A stretch of DNA of 36,846 nucleotides. Source: Oscillospiraceae bacterium. Its GTDB lineage: Bacteria > Bacillota > Clostridia > Oscillospirales > Oscillospiraceae. Below, one piece after another: positions 11,847-36,732 of this stretch. The DNA lies in NCBI GenBank assembly GCA_021205095.1, contig JAJPYE010000057.1, positions 1-36,846 on the forward strand. The letters run 5' to 3'. The notes under the pieces were generated by a model. That model did not search any database, was not told the origin of the DNA, and saw only the letters and a list, made by a program, of their open reading frames with translations. The position numbers were made by a program, and so were the translations under genes. Numbering within the stretch: position 1 is the first letter of the stretch; each line of letters begins with the position of its first letter.

Positions 11847-12536
11847 ATGCTGCTTGAAATGAAAAACATCTGCAAGGATTTCCCCCAGGGGGGTGAGACG
11901 GTACACGTCCTGAAGCGGGTGAATCTCTCCATCGAGCAGGGGGATTACCTGGCCATTATGGGGCCGTCCGGCTCCGGCAAGACCACCCTCATGAACATCA
12001 TCGGCTGTCTGGATGTTCCCACCAGCGGGACATATCGCCTGAACGGAGAGAACCTGGCCCAGGCCACGGACAACCGGCTGGCGGACGTGCGAAACTCCAC
12101 CCTGGGCTTTGTGTTCCAGAGCTTTTACCTGCTGCCCAGCCTGACGGCCAGGGACAACGTGGCCCTGCCCCTGCTGTACGCCGGGGTCAGCAAGCGCACC
12201 CGCTCCCGCCGGGCGGCGGAGGCGCTGCGGATGGTGGGCCTTTCTGACCGCATAGACTTTCTGCCCACCCAGCTCTCCGGCGGCCAGCAGCAGCGGGTGG
12301 CCATCGCCAGAGCCATGATAAACCGGCCCAAGCTGCTCCTGGCGGACGAACCCACCGGCGCCCTGGATTCCGCTTCCGGCCAGCAGGTCATGGATATTTT
12401 CGACGAGCTGCACGACCAGGGTACCACCATCGTGCTGATCACCCACGCCCCGGAGATCGGCCAGCGGGCCAGCCATATGCGGCGGATACTGGACGGGGTG
12501 CTTCTGCCGGAGGAGGGAGGCGAGCCGGATGCATAG
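11847..12536 (+). CDS. MacB/LolD-type ABC transporter ATP-binding protein
   Basis: The 229-residue ATPase has Walker [10 protein letters not shown] (39-47), Q-loop [10 protein letters not shown], signature [12 protein letters not shown], Walker [13 protein letters not shown] and the switch His in LITHAP. Sequence and length fit the MacB/LolD/FtsE group that powers FtsX-fold permeases. The ATG at 11847 has only a weak GAGGTGG upstream, so translation may be coupled to the preceding adaptor gene. Its last 8 nt overlap the start of the second adaptor. It should energise the permease encoded at 14683. Confidence 0.95.
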
Positions 12537-14664
12537 AGCGAAGAAAAAATCCCACAAGAAGCTGATCATCAGCGTTATCGCCGTGATCCTGGCTGTGGCC
12601 CTGCTGATTGGTATCTTGTTCATCGTCCGCAATCGCACCGGCGGGGCGGTGAACGTCTACCCGGTCAGCCAGGTCTCCACCAGCGGCGACTATGCCTACG
12701 AGACAGAGACGGAGGGAGCCGTCACGGCGGACAAGATCCAGTCTGTGTATATCTCCTCCACCCAGCAGGTGACGAAGATCTATGTCACCGAGGGCCAGAC
12801 CGTGGCCGTGGGCGACCCCATCCTGGCCTATGACACCACCCTCAGCCAGGTGGAGCTGGACAGGAAGGCCATTTCCGTCCAGCAGCTTGAGCTGGAGCTG
12901 GAAAGCGAGGAGAAAAACCTGGAAGAAATTGGCAATTACGCCATCGGCTCCGGCGGGGGGTACAGTATTTCCACCGACACCTCGACCAGCAGCGCAACAT
13001 CGGTCAGCGTTCCCTATTTCAAGGGGGGCAGCGGCACCGCCAGCGACCCATACGTTTGGCTGTGGAGCGACAGCATTGAGTACACCGACGCAGTGATACA
13101 AATGCTGGTAAATCCCCCCGTCCAGGAGGAGCCGGAGCCGACCCCCACCCCGGTTCCTACGGAAGAACCCCAGGAGACGGCGGAGCCGGAGCCCACCGGG
13201 GAACCCCAGGAAACGGACGCGCCGACAGAGACAGACGTTCCTGTGGAGACGGACACCCCGGCGGAGACGGACACCCCCGTGGAGACCGACGTCCCGGAAG
13301 AGACAGACGTTCCTGTGGAGACAGACACCCCCGTGGAAACGGACACCCCGGCAGAGACGGATACCCCGACAGAGACTGACGCCCCGGCGGAAACGGACAC
13401 CCCCGTGGAAACGGATGCTCCTGAGGAAACGGACACCCCGGCGGAAACAGATACTCCGGCAGAGACCGAGGCCCCGGAGCCGGAGGAGACCGGGGACGGG
13501 CGGGTCTATGTGGTGTTTGAGATTCGGGATTCCAACGCCCCCAAGGGAACTCTGACCCGCTGCTGGGAGATGGCCTTCCGGGAGGTGACAAGCATCACTG
13601 CCACCACCGGCACCGATGCCGATACCGACACCGACACCGATCCCTCCGGCGCGGACGATACCGCCGCCCCGGAGGAGACGGGAGAGGCAGAGGATATAAC
13701 GCCTGACACCGGGGAGGATACCGATCCCGGCGGGGACGGGGAAAACGTGAGCGGAGACGAAGAGGATAGCGCCGACGGCGATTCCGGCGACACTACCACC
13801 ACGACCACCGTCACCGTTTCCAGCCAGTGGGTGTTCTCCATCATCGAGCCAAATTATGTCCCGGACGAAAAGGAGACCGACGAAGGGGAGGTGTACATCG
13901 ACACCACGGTGTATTATACCGCCTCGGAGGTGGCCCAGCTCAAGCGGGAGAGCCAGCAGCGGATCGCCGACCTGACCATTCAGCTCAAGGTGGCCCAGCT
14001 TGAATATGAGCAGCTTGCGTACGAGCTTTCAAACGGGGAAGTTTATGCCACCGTGGCCGGGACAGTGAAAACCGTCCGGGACCCGGACACCGCCCTGGCG
14101 GAAGGCTCCCCTGTGGTACTGGTCTCCGGCGGAGGCGGCTACTACGTCACCGGCGTGCTGGGAGAGTTCGACCTAGACACCATGGCCGTGGGCGACACGG
14201 TGACGGTCTATAGCTGGCAGTCCGGGGAGCAGATTGAGGGAACCATCACGGAAATCTCTGAGTACCCCACAGAGAGCGACGAGTATTATTATTACACCGA
14301 CGGCAACACCAATATTTCCAAGTACCCCTTTACTGTTATGGTCAGCGAGGACGCCAATCTCCGGGAGGGGGAGTATGTGTACATCTATCTTGCCAATTCC
14401 GGCTGGAACGATGACGGCTCCGTGTATCTCTATAACCCCTTTATCCGCACGGAGGGGGGCAAGAGCTATATCTGGGCGGCGACAGAGAACGGTACCCTGG
14501 AAAAGCGCTACATCACCACAGGCATATCTCTTTGGGGCAGCTATACCCAGATCACCGGCGGCCTGACGGAGGAGGATTATGTGGCCTTCCCCTATGGCAG
14601 GAGCCTGCGGGACGGGGCCAAGGTCAAGTACAACGAGGACACCGACTCGCTGTACGGCTACTGA
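12529..14664 (+). CDS. HlyD-like efflux adaptor with large repeat insert
   Basis: The 711-residue protein is nearly twice the size of its neighbour adaptor. It has an N-terminal membrane anchor (about 11-33), a first barrel/lipoyl half ([20 protein letters not shown]), one arm of the helical hairpin (about 105-137), then about 327 inserted residues before the second arm (about 465-507), the second lipoyl half ([12 protein letters not shown]) and barrel domains ending in DYVAFPYG. The insert holds a small domain ([10 protein letters not shown]...; [22 protein letters not shown]) split by 15 hexapeptides of type ETDxPx (residues 228-317) and a second Asp/Thr/Gly-rich tract. The start overlaps the ATPase gene by 8 nt. 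The core insert may be shared by related clostridial adaptors; the long repeat is the unusual part. Confidence 0.87.
13210..13479 (+). repeat. 18-bp coding tandem repeat (15 ETDxPx hexapeptides)
   Basis: Fifteen consecutive 18-bp units encode the hexapeptides ETD-(T/V/A)-P-(V/A/E/T), the last as ETEAPE. Synonymous differences between units (gag/gaa, acg/aca/acc) show the array is not freshly expanded, but unit number could still vary between strains. The peptide should be extended, acidic and disordered. Confidence 0.95.
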
Positions 14665-31727: not shown

Positions 31728-33086
31728 ATGCTGAACACCTATGACATTCTGCAAACCATTGATATGCTGGACAACCAGCATCTTGACATCCGCACCGTCA
31801 CGATGGGAATTAACCTTCTCGACTGCGCCCACCCCCATATCGACACCTGCGCCCGGCGGGTGTATGACAAAATCTGCCGCCAGGCGGAAAATCTTCTGCC
31901 GGTGGCCCAGGGGATAGAGGCGGAGCTTGGCATCCCCATTGTGAACAAGCGAATCTCCGTGACGCCCATTGCCATGGTGGCCCAGGCCAGCGACGGGGAG
32001 GATTATACCCCCATCGCCAAAGCCATGGACAGAGCCGCCGCCACCTGCGGGGTGGACTTTATCGGGGGCTTTTCCGCCCTGGTGCAGAAGGGCCTCACCA
32101 AGGGCGACCGCCGCCTGATCGACAGCATCCCCCAGGCCCTGGCGGAGACAAAGCTGGTGTGCGCCAGCGTAAACGTGGGATCCACCAAGGCGGGCATTAA
32201 CATGGACGCAGTGGCCGCCATGGGGAAAATCGTGAAGCAGACCGCCCAGGCTACCGCTGACCAGGGCAGCATCGGCTGCGCAAAGCTCGTCGTGTTCTGC
32301 AACGCGGTGGAGGATAACCCCTTCATGGCCGGGGCCTTCCACGGCCCAGGGGAGCCGGAGTGCGCCATTAACGTAGGGGTCTCCGGCCCCGGCGTTGTGT
32401 ACCACGCCCTCCAGGAGGCCAAAGGCAAGCCCTTCGATGAGGTGGCGGAGATCGTGAAAAAGACTGCCTTCCGCATCACCAGGATGGGCCAGCTGGTGGC
32501 CCGCCTCGCGGCCAGCCGACTGGACGTGCCCTTCGGCGTTGTGGATCTGTCCCTTGCTCCCACCCCGGCGGTGGGGGATTCCGTGGCCCGGATCTTGGAA
32601 GAGATGGGCCTTTCCGTCTGCGGTACCCACGGTACCACCGCGGCCCTGGCCCTGTTAAACGATGCGGTGAAGAAGGGGGGCCTGATGGCCTCTGGCCGGG
32701 TGGGAGGCCTTTCCGGGGCCTTCATCCCCGTCAGCGAGGACGAGGGCATGATCGCCGCCGCCAGCTCCGGGGTGCTGACCCTGGACAAGCTGGAGGCCAT
32801 GACCTGCGTCTGCTCCGTGGGGCTGGATATGATCGCCGTCCCCGGCGACACCCCGGCAGAGACCATCTCCGCCATCATTGCGGACGAGGCCGCCATCGGC
32901 ATGGTGAACAACAAGACCACCGCCGTCCGGCTCATCCCCGCCGTAGGCTGCCAGGTGGGGGACACCGTGGACTTCGGGGGCCTTTTGGGGGCCGCCCCGG
33001 TCATGCCCGTCCATTCCGAGAGCGCGGCGGACTTTATCGCCCGCGGGGGCCACATTCCCGCACCCCTCCACAGCCTGAAAAACTGA
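31728..33086 (+). CDS. PFL family protein (UPF0210/DUF711)
   Basis: The 452-residue protein matches UPF0210: start [20 protein letters not shown], then [39 protein letters not shown] and [16 protein letters not shown]. Its fold is related to pyruvate-formate-lyase-like proteins, but no activity is established for the family. Length is typical (about 450). It is preceded by its usual ACT partner, and its stop overlaps the ATG of the MATE transporter gene by one base. The three may form one operon. Confidence 0.92.
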
Positions 33087-34405
33087 TGGGACAAACTGAC
33101 TTAACAAAGGGGGGCATATTTCGCCCCCTGGTAAAATACGCCGCCCCCCTGGTGCTTTCCAGCGTTTTGCAGGCCCTGTACGGCCTGGTGGACACTATCG
33201 TGGCCGGGCAGTTCATCGGCGCGGAGGCCCTCTCCGGCCTGACCAACGCCAACACCATCACCAACATGGCCACTCAGATCCTCATCGGCTTGTGCAATGG
33301 CGGAGGCATCCTGATCGGCCAGTATTTCGGGGCCAAACGGCGGGAGGAGACCCACCAGGCCGCCGCCACCCTGTTCATCGGCAGTCTGGCCGCCGGGCTG
33401 ATGGCCACGGCTCTGCTGGTGCTGTTGGGCCGCCCCATGCTGATCGCCCTGGGCGCCCCGGCCTTAGAGGAGGCCGCCGTGTATCTCATCACCTGCGGGG
33501 CGGGCTTTCTGTTCGTGGCCGCCTATAACGGGGCGGCGGCAGCCCTCCGGGCGGTGGGAAATTCTCGTGCCCCCCTGATCTGCGTGGCCTCCACCTCGGC
33601 GGCCAACGTGGTGCTGGATCTGCTGTTTGTGGTGGGGCTTGGGATGGGTGTCTTCGGCGCGGCCCTGGCCACGGTGCTGTCCCAGGCTGTCAGCTTCGCC
33701 GCCGCTATGGTCTTCCTTTGGCGGGATAAGGAGAGCTTCGGCCTCCGGCTGAAGACCCTGCGGGTCAACGGCTCCATGCTGAAAAAGGAGCTGAAGCTGG
33801 GCTTTCCCTGCGCCGTGCAGATGAGCATGGCCGCCCTGAGCTGGCTTTCCGTTACCTTCCTGATTAACGGCTACGGGGTGGCGGTCTCTGCGGGGAACGG
33901 GGTCTCCAACAAAATCAAGGAGTTCTGCCAGCTATTCATCAGCACCATGTCAACCGCCGCCGCCGGGATGATCGCCCAGAACATCGGGGCGGGCCTGTAT
34001 GACCGGGCCAGAGAGACCATGTATTCCGCCATGCGGATCACCGTGGCTCTGGCTCTGGCCATCATCCTGTTTGTGGAGCTGACTGCCCCCTGGCTGGTGG
34101 GCGCCTTCACCTCCGACCCGGAGACCGCCTCCGCCGCCGTGCGGAACCTGCGGATCGAGATCATCGGCCAGCTCTTTTACGCCGTCTTCCTGGTCTACCA
34201 CAGCCTGATGCTGGGGGCCGGGAACACCTGGTACGTGTTCTTCTCCAGCCTTATCAACTGTATTCTGGTGCGCGTCACCCTGAGCCTTCTGTTTAATCAC
34301 CTCTGGGGCCTGGACGGCCTTTATATCGCCTGCATGATCGCCCCCTTCGCCTCCGTCCCCTTCGGCCTCTGGTACGAGCGTTCCAACCGCTGGCGGAAGT
34401 GCTGA
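33086..34405 (+). CDS. MATE family multidrug efflux transporter
   Basis: The 439-residue membrane protein has twelve predicted membrane segments and MATE hallmarks: APLVLSSVLQALYGLVDTIVAGQFIG in the first segment, a conserved loop LIGQYFGAKRREETHQAA and a repeated second half (KLGFPCAVQMSMAAL). Such proteins export drugs or metabolites using a sodium or proton gradient. The ATG overlaps the PFL stop (TGATG) without an RBS of its own, so translation is coupled. Substrate unknown. Confidence 0.93.
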   Translation: MGQTDLTKGGIFRPLVKYAAPLVLSSVLQALYGLVDTIVAGQFIGAEALSGLTNANTITNMATQILIGLCNGGGILIGQYFGAKRREETHQAAATLFIGSLAAGLMATALLVLLGRPMLIALGAPALEEAAVYLITCGAGFLFVAAYNGAAAALRAVGNSRAPLICVASTSAANVVLDLLFVVGLGMGVFGAALATVLSQAVSFAAAMVFLWRDKESFGLRLKTLRVNGSMLKKELKLGFPCAVQMSMAALSWLSVTFLINGYGVAVSAGNGVSNKIKEFCQLFISTMSTAAAGMIAQNIGAGLYDRARETMYSAMRITVALALAIILFVELTAPWLVGAFTSDPETASAAVRNLRIEIIGQLFYAVFLVYHSLMLGAGNTWYVFFSSLINCILVRVTLSLLFNHLWGLDGLYIACMIAPFASVPFGLWYERSNRWRKC

Positions 34406-34426
34406 TATGCCATGAAAGAACCCTCC

Positions 34427-34470
34427 CGCCCCGGTCAGCCCTTTGTCCGGCGGCGGGAAAAATTTTTCCA
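34427..34470 (+). terminator. Terminator-like hairpin after the MATE gene
   Basis: CCCGCC..CGG pairs with CCGG.CGGCGGG across a 12-nt loop, followed by AAAAATTTTTCC. It is a weak intrinsic terminator because the T tract is delayed. Confidence 0.5.
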
Positions 34471-34487
34471 AAAATCAAAAAAAGGTG

Positions 34488-34516
34488 TTGACAGAAGGGG
34501 AAGGGTATGCTATTAT
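34488..34516 (+). promoter_or_regulatory. Strong promoter of the candidate small RNA
   Basis: TTGACA at 34488-34493 (perfect), a 17-nt spacer ending in TGC, and TATTAT at 34511-34516 (extended -10). Transcription should start near 34523. The next credible gene, tRNA-Leu, has its own promoter. Confidence 0.85.
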
Positions 34517-34523
34517 AACATCA

Positions 34524-34539
34524 GTTAGGGAAACCTAAC
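34524..34539. promoter_or_regulatory. Perfect palindrome at the predicted sRNA start
   Basis: GTTAGG-GAAA-CCTAAC. The TTAGG-N4-CCTAA core resembles sites of DtxR/MntR-type metal-responsive repressors. The GAAA centre is also a GNRA tetraloop, so it may instead be a 5' stabilising hairpin of the RNA. Confidence 0.55.
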
Positions 34540-34683
34540 GTATTCTTAGCCAGCAAGTTAGCCAACGCTAATTTTATAGAGCCGACAGCGACCGGGCTGC
34601 CTATCTCCTATTCCTCTATGCGGCGCTGAGCCGCTCCTTTCCGCCACTGGACGCATCACCTCTGGCTTAAGTGGGGCGCTCAC

Positions 34684-34771
34684 CTCCTAAAACCTGCGCT
34701 TGGCAGAAGGCGCAGACGCCATTTTTGCTCCTAAAACCATTGGCATAAAAACAATGCAGACGCTTATGACA
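34684..34771 (+). repeat. Two 44-nt units with conserved flanks around different hairpins
   Basis: CTCCTAAAACC occurs at 34684-34694 and 34728-34738, and GCAGACGC at 34712-34719 and 34756-34763, both exactly 44 nt apart. The 17 nt between them differ yet form a hairpin in each unit (CTGCGC stem, CATTG stem), so structure seems kept while sequence changed. Confidence 0.8.
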
Positions 34772-34812
34772 TTCTCTCTAACCCCTATCCTGACATTTTG
34801 CCGCATAAGGAT

Positions 34813-34842
34813 AAAGCCGCCGGTTGATCCGGCGGCTTTTTT
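34813..34842 (+). terminator. Intrinsic terminator of the candidate small RNA
   Basis: Perfect 11-bp stem AAAGCCGCCGG (34813-34823) with its complement (34829-34839), TTGAT loop, T run at 34837-34842. Confidence 0.93.
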
Positions 34843-34894
34843 CTTGCATAGGTATACAGGCCCGGTTCTGCCCCTGACTCTGTTATAAAAATAT

Positions 34895-34923
34895 TTGACT
34901 TTTTATGCCCGTTGGTGTATTCT
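34895..34923 (+). promoter_or_regulatory. Promoter of tRNA-Leu
   Basis: TTGACT at 34895-34900, a 17-nt spacer and TATTCT at 34918-34923. Start is expected near 34930, a few bases before the mature tRNA. Confidence 0.7.
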
Positions 34924-34935
34924 AAAGTGTAATAT

Positions 34936-35021
34936 GCCGGCGTGGTGGAATGGCAGACACTGGGGACTTAAAATCCCCTGTCCGTAAGGACGTGCGGGTT
35001 CGAGCCCCGCCGCCGGCACCA
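34936..35021 (+). tRNA. tRNA-Leu (UAA anticodon)
   Basis: The 86-nt gene folds as a class II tRNA. Acceptor stem GCCGGCG pairs with CGCCGGC, followed by discriminator A and an encoded CCA. The anticodon stem GGGGA/TCCCC holds loop CTTAAAA with anticodon TAA at 34969-34971. A long variable arm (GTCCGTAAGGAC) and a T arm with GGTTCGAGCCC complete it. It reads UUA and UUG leucine codons. Confidence 0.96.
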
Positions 35022-35025
35022 GCTC

Positions 35026-35089
35026 AGAATGGCCCTGAAGACGGAGGGGCCACGCAGGCGTGTCCCCGTCCGTCGGTCGTGGCCATTCT
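35026..35089 (+). terminator. Long rod-like hairpin downstream of tRNA-Leu
   Basis: AGAATGGCC (35026-35034) pairs with GGCCATTCT (35081-35089). Inside it GACGGAGGGG (35040-35049) pairs with CCCC-g-TCCGTC (35064-35074, one bulge), capped by CACG/CGTG around 35055. About 23 base pairs in total. There is no clean T tract, so it may end or protect the tRNA transcript, or be a separate RNA element. Confidence 0.55.
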
Positions 35090-35196
35090 TCGCTTCCAAA
35101 TCGAATCCGCTGCGCTGGGTGCGCTCTTTTTATAGGGAACAACTGTGGACAAAACGGACAGATTTCGTTTCTTTGTCCCCTTTTTTAACAGTTTTT

Positions 35197-35218
35197 AGCA
35201 TTTGTACAATGCTTTTTA
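35197..35218 (+). terminator. Small hairpin with T tract, or operator
   Basis: AGCATT-TGTAC-AATGCT (35197-35213) followed by TTTTT. It could be a weak terminator of the tRNA unit or a regulator site for the radical SAM gene. The rest of 35090-35283 is AT-rich and shows no clear promoter or gene. Confidence 0.35.
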
Positions 35219-35283
35219 CTCTCTTCTGTGATACGATAAAAGATAAAGAAATTATTTGATTTTATATAAGGTGGTAATCAACA

Positions 35284-36732
35284 ATGGCATCCATAGGATA
35301 CACGATTGAACGACAAACGGTCAAAACCCTCATCAACCATTTATATGATAACGTGGCTGATAAGGAAAAGCGCGCAGACGCGCTTTGTCAGATAGTGGAC
35401 TTCGGATCGAAGTTCTACAAGGGTTCTCCCGAACAGATTGAAAAGCTCAAAAACACCATCCGCACGTCTGACGCGCATTATATGCAGATTCTCAACACCA
35501 TGCTGGACGAGGGCAACCCCCAGTATGTGAAAAAGGTTCTCATGAATCTGGGCTATGAAGCGACCTATCACGGCACCAAAATGATTCGCGCCAACCGCGA
35601 AAAGTACGGCTGCAACATCCCCTGGCTCATCCTGTTTGATCCGACCATGGCCTGCAATATGCACTGTGTCGGCTGCTGGTCCGGCACCTATGGCCACAAG
35701 TCCAGCCTGACCTATGAGGATATGGACAAGATTGTCACCGAGGGCAAGGCCCTGGGCGCTTATCTCTATATGCTCACTGGCGGCGAGCCGATGGTGCGCA
35801 AAAAGGACATCCTCCGCCTCTGCGAAAAGCACAACGACTGCTTCTTTGCCGCCTATACAAACTCCACCCTGATCGACGAAGAGCTGTGCCAGAAGGTGGT
35901 GGAGCTTGGAAACCTGACCTTTATGATTTCCATCGAGGGGACGGAGGAGACCAACGACGCCCGCCGCGGCGAGGGCCACTATGCCGCCGCCGTGAAGGCC
36001 ATGGATCTCCTCAAGCAGTACGGCATCCTCTACGGCATCTCCGTCTGCTACACCCGCAATAATATCGACGCCGTCACCAGCGATGAATTTCTGCGCTTCG
36101 TCTCCTCCAAGGGGGCGCACTTCGGCTTCTATTTCCACTATATGCCCGTGGGCAACAACGCCGTGCCGGAGCTTATGCCCACCCCGGAGCAGCGCCGGGC
36201 CATGATTGACCGCATCCGCTATATCCGCTCCGACGACTGCGACATCCCATTCTTCCCCATGGACTTCCAGAACGACGGCGAGTTTGTGGGCGGTTGCATC
36301 GCCGGAGGCCGGAACTACTTCCACATAAACTCCAACGGCGACGCGGAGCCGTGCGTGTTCATCCACTTCTCCGACGCCAACATCCACGACAAATCCATCC
36401 TGGAAATTCTCCAAAGCCCCTTGTTCATGCAGTATCATGAGGGCCAGCCCTTCAACCGCAACCATCTGCGGCCCTGCCCCATGCTGGAAAACCCGGACGA
36501 GCTGCGCGGCATGATAGAGCGCACCGGCGCGCACCAGACAAACATGGAGTCCCCGGAGGAGGTAGAACACCTCTGTGCCAAGTGCGACGCCTACGCCCAG
36601 GCTTGGGCGCCTGTGGCCCAGGAATATTGGGACACTCACCAGCATCCTCAGCGCAAGTACGAAAACTATGCGCCTGAAAAGGTAGCCCACCCGGAGCTGG
36701 CCGCCTTTGAACACGCTGACGATAAAACCTGA
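35284..36732 (+). CDS. Radical SAM protein with auxiliary cysteine cluster
   Basis: The 482-residue protein has the radical SAM site ACNMHCVGCW (Cys124-x3-Cys128-x2-Cys131) after an N-terminal helical region of about 110 residues. The GGEP motif (MLTGGEPMVRKKD) that binds SAM follows. The C-terminal third carries more cysteines in a SPASM-like pattern: FVGGCIAGG, EPCVFIH, LRPCPMLE and EHLCAKC. The SPASM-like C terminus suggests peptide or enzyme modification, but no precursor peptide gene is seen beside it. GGTGG lies 9 nt before the ATG. A strong terminator follows. Substrate unknown. Confidence 0.88.
   Translation: MASIGYTIERQTVKTLINHLYDNVADKEKRADALCQIVDFGSKFYKGSPEQIEKLKNTIRTSDAHYMQILNTMLDEGNPQYVKKVLMNLGYEATYHGTKMIRANREKYGCNIPWLILFDPTMACNMHCVGCWSGTYGHKSSLTYEDMDKIVTEGKALGAYLYMLTGGEPMVRKKDILRLCEKHNDCFFAAYTNSTLIDEELCQKVVELGNLTFMISIEGTEETNDARRGEGHYAAAVKAMDLLKQYGILYGISVCYTRNNIDAVTSDEFLRFVSSKGAHFGFYFHYMPVGNNAVPELMPTPEQRRAMIDRIRYIRSDDCDIPFFPMDFQNDGEFVGGCIAGGRNYFHINSNGDAEPCVFIHFSDANIHDKSILEILQSPLFMQYHEGQPFNRNHLRPCPMLENPDELRGMIERTGAHQTNMESPEEVEHLCAKCDAYAQAWAPVAQEYWDTHQHPQRKYENYAPEKVAHPELAAFEHADDKT

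Follow-up and report, generated by a model that had tools for sequence, protein, structure and literature searches.

The locus and its boundaries

The window, by which we mean the whole stretch of 36,846 nt that was analysed, is a single contig (G000:C64) of an Oscillospiraceae genome (G000) of 2.34 Mb in 66 contigs. Between the gene of a MATE transporter and a tRNA (34936-35018) lies a unit which, to judge by its sequence, very probably makes an undescribed small regulatory RNA (sRNA). Its features are collected in Table 1. Immediately upstream, the gene of a DUF711 protein (31728-33086) touches the MATE gene. By eye, a G+C-rich inverted repeat followed by AAAAATTTTT can be seen past the MATE stop codon (34415-34475), possibly the terminator of that gene.

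Table 1. Features of the predicted sRNA gene and its upstream neighbour (window coordinates)
Feature	Position	Strand	Basis or remark
MATE family efflux transporter, upstream neighbour	33086..34405	+	conserved in 5/5
A/T-rich upstream tract, UP-like	34460..34487	+	likeness to stretches of the same genus
Promoter TTGACA, 17 nt, TG-C-TATTAT	34488..34516	+	kept in 5/5 homologues
Predicted small RNA, ~320 nt	34522..34842	+	ends placed from promoter and terminator; five homologues aligned
5' hairpin GTTAGGgaaaCCTAAC	34524..34539	+	fold
M1, unpaired CU-rich segment CTATCTCCTATTCC	34601..34614	+	possible second korD-like contact; invariant 8 nt, mean unpaired 0.83
Closing helix P3, 5' strand	34616..34625	+	fold
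Helix enclosing invariant hairpin GCCACTGGACGCATCACCTCTGGC (34643-34666)	34628..34680	+	hand alignment
M2b TCACCTCCTAAAA, anti-SD string, first repeat copy	34680..34692	+	G000 and G016 only
Hairpin CTGCGC...GCGCAG, invariant loop GGCAGAA	34694..34715	+	alignment, fold
M3 GCCATTTTTGCTCCTAAAAC, reads as complement of SD plus AUG	34718..34737	+	no conserved target found
M4a CTTATGACATTCTCTCT, main predicted seed	34763..34779	+	invariant in 5/5, mean unpaired 0.81
M4b CCCCTATCCTGACA	34782..34795	+	invariant, unpaired 0.85, no target signal
Closing helix P3, 3' strand	34799..34807	+	fold
Intrinsic terminator, 11-pair stem	34813..34839	+	in 4/4 homologues with uncut contig

The near-consensus extended -10 promoter and the strong terminator described in the first-pass annotation are both present; the promoter matches 11 of 12 consensus positions and carries the extended TG. 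Scans for such elements are weak evidence when taken alone because their counts are near the chance expectation: over 1 kb we found 2 promoter-like sites where 0.9 would be expected by chance and 3 terminator-like sites where 1.2 would be expected. We take both elements as real because they are conserved among the homologues. The -35 box TTGACA is identical in all five, the -10 box is retained as ATGnyAnnAT, and the terminator is found wherever the contig is not cut.

The upstream tract together with TTGACA shows 89-92% identity over 36 bases with stretches of three other genomes of the genus (G001, G003 and G018), and downstream of the similar tract in G018 (L006) we recognised by eye a 16S rRNA-like sequence. 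Owing to this resemblance the sRNA promoter looks rRNA-like, a judgement based on the G018 stretch and not on the rRNA promoter of G000 itself. Similar strings of A-tract plus TTGACA occur at 4 other places in a 618-kb sample of G000, none of which was seen to be rRNA. The type of promoter points to growth, and not iron, as the cue. A similar tract with TTGACA also stands before an apparent ribosomal protein gene in the genome of another family (L010, ~759-830, by eye).

We scanned for Fur, PerR and MntR boxes with consensus strings and used mononucleotide shuffles as control. There was no Fur-like box at the sRNA promoter in any of the five species: the best fits to the 7-1-7 consensus had 6-7 mismatches, and 149-200 of 200 shuffles fitted equally well. 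No PerR-like box was found at these five promoters either. With the MntR consensus, a string with 4 mismatches in G000 was matched by 7 of 200 shuffles and one with 5 mismatches in G041 by 21 of 200; the two strings lie at differing positions.

On neither strand do the five species keep a reading frame of similar start, length and sequence, in agreement with the earlier statement that the ~320 nt hold no credible ORF. In the plus-strand frames, indels change the phase from one species to the next and no start is common to all. On the minus strand AGGAG-caaaa-ATG (AGGAGCAAAA-ATG) precedes a short frame starting with MAS in all five species, with lengths of 11, 7, 36, 22 and 19 codons, and no promoter-like site was found for that strand in 34300-35300. 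These observations indicate that the unit codes for an RNA and not for a protein.

A match to an existing Rfam family had been named as an outcome that would speak against a new RNA. Rfam 15 gave no family above the gathering score at the locus. There were 14 sub-threshold matches with E values up to 5, of which 12 overlap the terminator hairpin. For 6S RNA (RF00013) the covariance model did not match here, and canonical 6S RNA was found at another locus in each of the five genomes.

Homologues and distribution

Among 35 genomes of the genus, blastn found the unit in five: G000 and four relatives, all of them MAGs (G016 with 91% identity, G041 with 80%, G040 with 79% and G004 with 76%). Our covariance model of the sRNA (R1) recovered the same five of 35 at full length, with one full-length copy each; besides these it gave two weak matches, one in G010 (17.7 bits) and one at another position of G040 (19.8 bits). 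In a draw of 300 genomes of the family, searched with stricter filters that distant relatives may escape, R1 matched 3 and none outside the genus. A weak extra blastn match among 250 family genomes (G190) looks coding by eye and was rejected. The 19-mer CTGGACGCATCACCTCTGG occurs in 6 records of genome_contigs, of which 4 agree with the known homologues and 2 are unrelated (Marivita and an Acidobacteriota MAG). With regard to a phage origin, the pattern TGACATTCTCTCTN{1,9}CCCTATCCTGACA had no exact match in viral_contigs.

The five species form a tight group since their GlgP sequences are 96-97% identical to that of G000, compared to 74-81% for the other matches (34 of the 35 genomes matched). 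At E <= 1e-100 the MATE gene is present in exactly the five sRNA-bearing genomes among the 35, and it lies upstream of the sRNA in every one of them. The downstream genes vary: G000 has a tRNA and a radical SAM gene, G016 an ABC transporter gene on the opposite strand and G004 a ComM-like gene (the last two by eye). In G040 the genes seen by eye have no assigned identity, and in G041 the contig ends. Given its own promoter and terminator, the constant MATE gene upstream and the differing genes downstream, the unit can be regarded as an RNA gene in its own right that belongs to a single tight clade. The presence of the terminator and the differing downstream genes rule out a cis leader of the downstream gene, and a 3' UTR of the MATE gene is unlikely because the sRNA has its own conserved promoter.

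A sixth genome, G005, is 64% complete, and neither GlgP nor the MATE gene was detected in its assembly. It carries a korD-like site (see below) which is identical to that of G040 including 30 nt of flank, and we therefore counted it as a member of the clade with a missing contig; a second site in G005 lies away from starts.

Conservation and structure

In the alignment of the five species 182 of the 302 columns before the terminator are invariant. The conservation of the RNA comes in blocks, with invariant runs of 24, 17, 14 and 14 nt that include GCCACTGGACGCATCACCTCTGGC, CTTATGACATTCTCTCT, GCCATTTTTGCTCC and CCCCTATCCTGACA. Pairwise identity is 76-92% over the whole RNA compared to 62-88% at the fourfold sites of the adjoining MATE gene, and the invariant share is 58% among unpaired and 67% among paired positions.

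For G000 the folding z score was -3.5 with the terminator and -2.0 without it. Without the terminator the folding beats that of the shuffles in four of the five species (z from -2.0 to -3.3), the value for G016 being about -0.3 (-0.28). The check for homologues with covariation that had been proposed produced the five homologues. Covariation is slight: it is seen in 4 of 74 predicted pairs and the covariation term is unfavourable. In the hand alignment the strands of the outer helix around the invariant hairpin GCCACTGGACGCATCACCTCTGGC, GAGCCGCTC and GGGGCGCTC, are replaced by GGCCGACCC and GGGACGGCCC in G040 with pairing retained, which is suggestive of covariation at this helix.

The CU-rich strings noted earlier are all there: CTATCTCCTATTCC (34601-34614), CACCTCC (34681-34687), CTCCTAAAACC twice (34684-34694 and 34728-34738) and CTCTCTAACCCC (34774-34785). 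The repetition is true of G000 but is not a conserved property. The motif CTCCTAAAA is doubled only in G000 and G016, that is in two of the five species, and G000 alone has two exact copies of CTCCTAAAACC; the first place reads GACCTCCTGACG in G041 and G040 and CAGCTCCCGATC in G004.

Complementarity to translation starts

We called 517 genes in 618,090 bases of G000 with a simple caller. A GGAG lies within 17 nt upstream of the start in 61% of them, a figure that is inflated by the preference of the caller for Shine-Dalgarno (SD) sequences. M2b, M3 and M4a paired better with start regions than with gene interiors, and their start pairing exceeded that of each of 15 dinucleotide shuffles. In the G000 sample the start pairing of M1, of M4b and of the invariant hairpin was not above that of the shuffles. 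The anti-SD idea is therefore true in part, though any anti-SD string would behave alike. With at least 12 contiguous pairs, the seed region matched 2 start regions of the 517-gene sample and nothing within genes, and the reversed segment matched none. The corresponding 12-nt matches for the reversed and the true segment were 2 and 1 for M1, and 1 and 0 for M2b. The proposal that CU-rich strands face ribosome-binding sites holds as an idea, but its best carrier is the invariant CTTATGACATTCTCTCT and not the doubled string.

For M3 the long antisense target TTTTAGGAGCAAAAATGGCGTC was rejected: within 3 mismatches the five genomes contained it in the RNA gene alone. The 14-mer core of M3 was found with at most 1 mismatch at 11 places, 5 of which are the RNA gene, 5 have one mismatch, and one is a further perfect match. 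This match lies at the start of a 108-aa ORF (L078, ~16,800, minus strand), whose 14-nt complementarity to M3 occurs in G000 and in none of the other four genomes.

With at most 2 mismatches, the 15-mer GAGAGAATGTCATAA, a complement of the seed, occurs 37 times over the five genomes, the RNA gene accounting for 5 of these occurrences, compared to 12 for the reversed 15-mer. Including the RNA gene there are 10 places in G000, 8 in G016, 6 in G040, 7 in G041 and 6 in G004; the reversed string gave 3, 3, 2, 3 and 1, respectively. We inspected 29 of the 32 places outside the RNA gene, and several of these are orthologous gene starts. In G000 the seed complement falls on 4 start regions, those of a korD-like ferredoxin (T1), mntP (T2), a methyltransferase (T3) and an Oxidored_FMN enzyme (T4). 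Control 15-mers taken from the 517 starts, when set against the other starts of the sample, hit on average 0.15-0.24 other genes each, which corresponds to ~0.6-0.9 per whole genome. A further target, the C_GCAxxG_C_C gene, is referred to as T5.

The exact 12-mer GRGAGAATGTCA, including its R, was picked once T1, T2 and T5 were known. It has 17 sites in the five sRNA-bearing genomes, 5 in the RNA gene and 12 elsewhere, and all 12 lie at translation starts: those of the korD-like gene in five of the five species, of mntP in four and of C_GCAxxG_C_C in three. In the 29 genomes of the genus that have no sRNA (G005 set apart) there are 7 sites, of which one is clearly at a start (G023) and 3 have no start nearby. 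The other 3 (L187-L189) are followed 26-43 nt downstream by a codon of a long frame, GTG or TTG, which in our judgement is unlikely to be a true start. The reversed 12-mer was absent from the five sRNA genomes and occurred 10 times in the remaining 30. When the 29 genomes serve as the null, the Poisson P of finding three independent sites at starts within a single lineage is ~7e-6, or of 1e-3 if the upper-bound rate of 0.19 per genome is used; both values are optimistic because the 12-mer was chosen with the first matches in view. As the five species are close relatives within one lineage, the conserved sites are not independent of each other, though the three loci are. The clade is also distant from the rest of the genus and its start regions may differ for other reasons.

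The korD-like site reads GGAAAGGGAGAATGTCATTATG in all five species (in G016 it is locus L175, also L200), and the start is either the ATG that the 12-mer contains or another ATG in frame, 24 nt downstream. The mntP site is AAAGGGAGAATGTCACAATG in four species, with the ATG 2 nt after it, and the C_GCAxxG_C_C site is AGGAGAGAATGTCArctATG in three, with the ATG 3 nt after the element. The spacing from element to start is thus alike for mntP and C_GCAxxG_C_C, and not surely so for the korD-like gene. The T1 product scored above the cut-off for PF12838 and below it for PorD_KorD, and the adjoining alpha subunit scored above its cut-off; we assign T1 from these domains as the ferredoxin of a 2-oxoacid:ferredoxin oxidoreductase operon. 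The T2 product MntP (PF02659) is a manganese exporter and the T5 product (PF09719) a putative redox protein; of the three, the use of iron is seen in the 4Fe-4S ferredoxin. Upstream of mntP, on the opposite strand, there is a match to the molybdenum/tungsten (Moco) riboswitch (L172, 1893-2036, minus strand).

The korD-like site can form 14 contiguous pairs with the seed, one of them G-U, at -24.7 kcal/mol. The next stretch of the same mRNA pairs with M1 at -21.8 kcal/mol, and the two contacts are collinear in sRNA and mRNA. This second contact ranks 4th of 518 start regions when the window is set on ATGAGC and 30th for the alternative start; after correction for 24 window-segment combinations the second-site ranks are borderline. 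The remaining two candidates are weaker, with matches at 2 mismatches: the RlmL/K-like methyltransferase start (T3) in two of the five species and the Oxidored_FMN start (T4) in four. In T4 GAATGTCATAA stands right past a -10-like box and TTTTAGGAGG serves as the SD. In G000 the start region of T4 ranks first of 518 for M2b, a segment not conserved in three species, and 104th for the seed.

Relation to known regulatory RNAs

A comparison with FsrA and RsaE had been drawn before; it holds for the mechanism and not as homology. RsaE/RoxS and LhrC direct a C-rich strand against the SD, and Rfam has models for both; the strand is alike, whereas no Rfam family matches the present sRNA. RoxS is also mentioned in PMC12871923. 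In the accounts of PMC9410917 and PMC12871923, FsrA of Bacillus subtilis pairs a C-rich motif with the SD of mRNAs for iron-containing proteins, is controlled by Fur and is assisted by Fbp. Our sRNA shares a strand predicted to face the SD but has no Fur-like box. For IsrR of Staphylococcus a length of 174 nt is stated, together with Fur boxes and several single-stranded C-rich regions that lower the translation of iron-enzyme mRNAs (PMC9410917); the present RNA is ~320 nt long, with a mixed CU seed and again no Fur-like box. It thus resembles FsrA and IsrR in its presumed mode yet fails the Fur-box test, and we would file it in no known family.

The streptococcal csRNAs have regions complementary to the RBS and AUG according to PMC8186281; they are controlled by CiaR, and five are reported for S. 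pneumoniae (PMC3091779). The complementarity is alike, whereas here there is one full-length copy per genome. For NfeR1 of the alpha-r14 or cuckoo RNAs, PMC10746234 describes three hairpins with identical CCUCCUCCC motifs. Several anti-SD motifs are common to both cases, but here the strings differ mutually and one seed has the conserved sites; CCUCCUCCC is absent from all five aligned sRNA sequences. A literature search on the family and small-RNA terms returned no sRNA study of Oscillospiraceae among the matches listed. The main text of a structured-RNA screen of the human microbiome (PMC8040213) contains no word in Oscillospir-, Ruminococc- or Faecalibacterium-; the sRNA could figure in the candidate list of that study.

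Interpretation and alternatives

We consider it probable that the locus encodes an undescribed trans-acting sRNA of one Oscillospiraceae clade which blocks the translation of metal and redox genes by pairing with their SD regions. Transcription of the RNA would begin at the strong promoter described above and stop at the terminator of the unit, and the long-range closing helix would hold the hairpins and leave the CU-rich strands single. The strand CUUAUGACAUUCUCUCU could then form 13-14 pairs, with at most one G-U, with the start regions of a few mRNAs, namely those of the korD-like ferredoxin, mntP, the C_GCAxxG_C_C redox protein and possibly the Oxidored_FMN enzyme. A second CU-rich strand perhaps helps in some of these targets. 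Pairing of the seed would block binding of the 30S subunit. The predicted targets appear to share a metal and redox theme which resembles that of the iron-sparing RNAs. E. coli is described in PMC4361602 as importing manganese when iron is unavailable, and we infer that blocking a manganese exporter would suit such a theme. If this reading is true, RNAs that block the SD of metal and redox genes have arisen independently once more. With a named seed and named target sites, post-transcriptional control in uncultured gut clostridia becomes testable with reporters, and the relatives that have no sRNA, where we saw none of the sites at the starts in question, give a contrast.

A more specific version, which we put forward as tentative, is a growth-coupled riboregulator born within the clade. 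An rRNA-type promoter would drive an RNA with several different CU-rich strands, which together would close both the SD and the start codon in mRNAs for Fe-S proteins, flavin/redox proteins and manganese export, as a form of metal economy outside Fur control whose origin would be independent of FsrA, IsrR and RyhB. It is unlikely that the unit is instead a structured RNA for protein or RNA binding (6S-like, a sponge or a scaffold) whose start matches are a by-product of an anti-SD-like composition. The invariant hairpin GCCACTGGACGCATCACCTCTGGC, the loop GGCAGAA and M4b, for which there is no target signal, would suit such a role, as would the abundance that the rRNA-like promoter tract suggests. 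Against it stand the canonical 6S RNA elsewhere in all five genomes and the concentration of the seed complement at starts within the sRNA-bearing clade.

That the 12-mer GRGAGAATGTCA of the three genes is the site of an RNA-binding protein or other regulator, with the RNA as a decoy or unrelated, appears very unlikely to us. The element is indeed common to the three genes and precedes the start codon by 2 nt (mntP) and 3 nt (C_GCAxxG_C_C), but a protein decoy would carry the same strand, whereas the sRNA carries the complement, invariant and predicted to be unpaired in all five species. It is highly improbable that the unit is a small mRNA, or an RNA of dual function, that carries a short ORF: short frames do exist, including the minus-strand frame behind AGGAG-caaaa-ATG in all five species, but they run to 7-36 codons on that strand, which has no promoter-like site in 34300-35300, and are indel-shifted on the plus strand. 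Finally, chance promoter and terminator sequences around junk would agree with the near-chance counts of the consensus scans and with an RNA identity close to that of the MATE fourfold sites. The four long invariant runs, the conserved promoter and terminator and the differing downstream neighbours make this reading scarcely credible.

Other features of the window

A 5S rRNA lies at the start of the contig (96-212), and the contig break is probably within an rRNA operon. Further on, 12529-14664 encodes a protein with a long run of low-complexity repeats.
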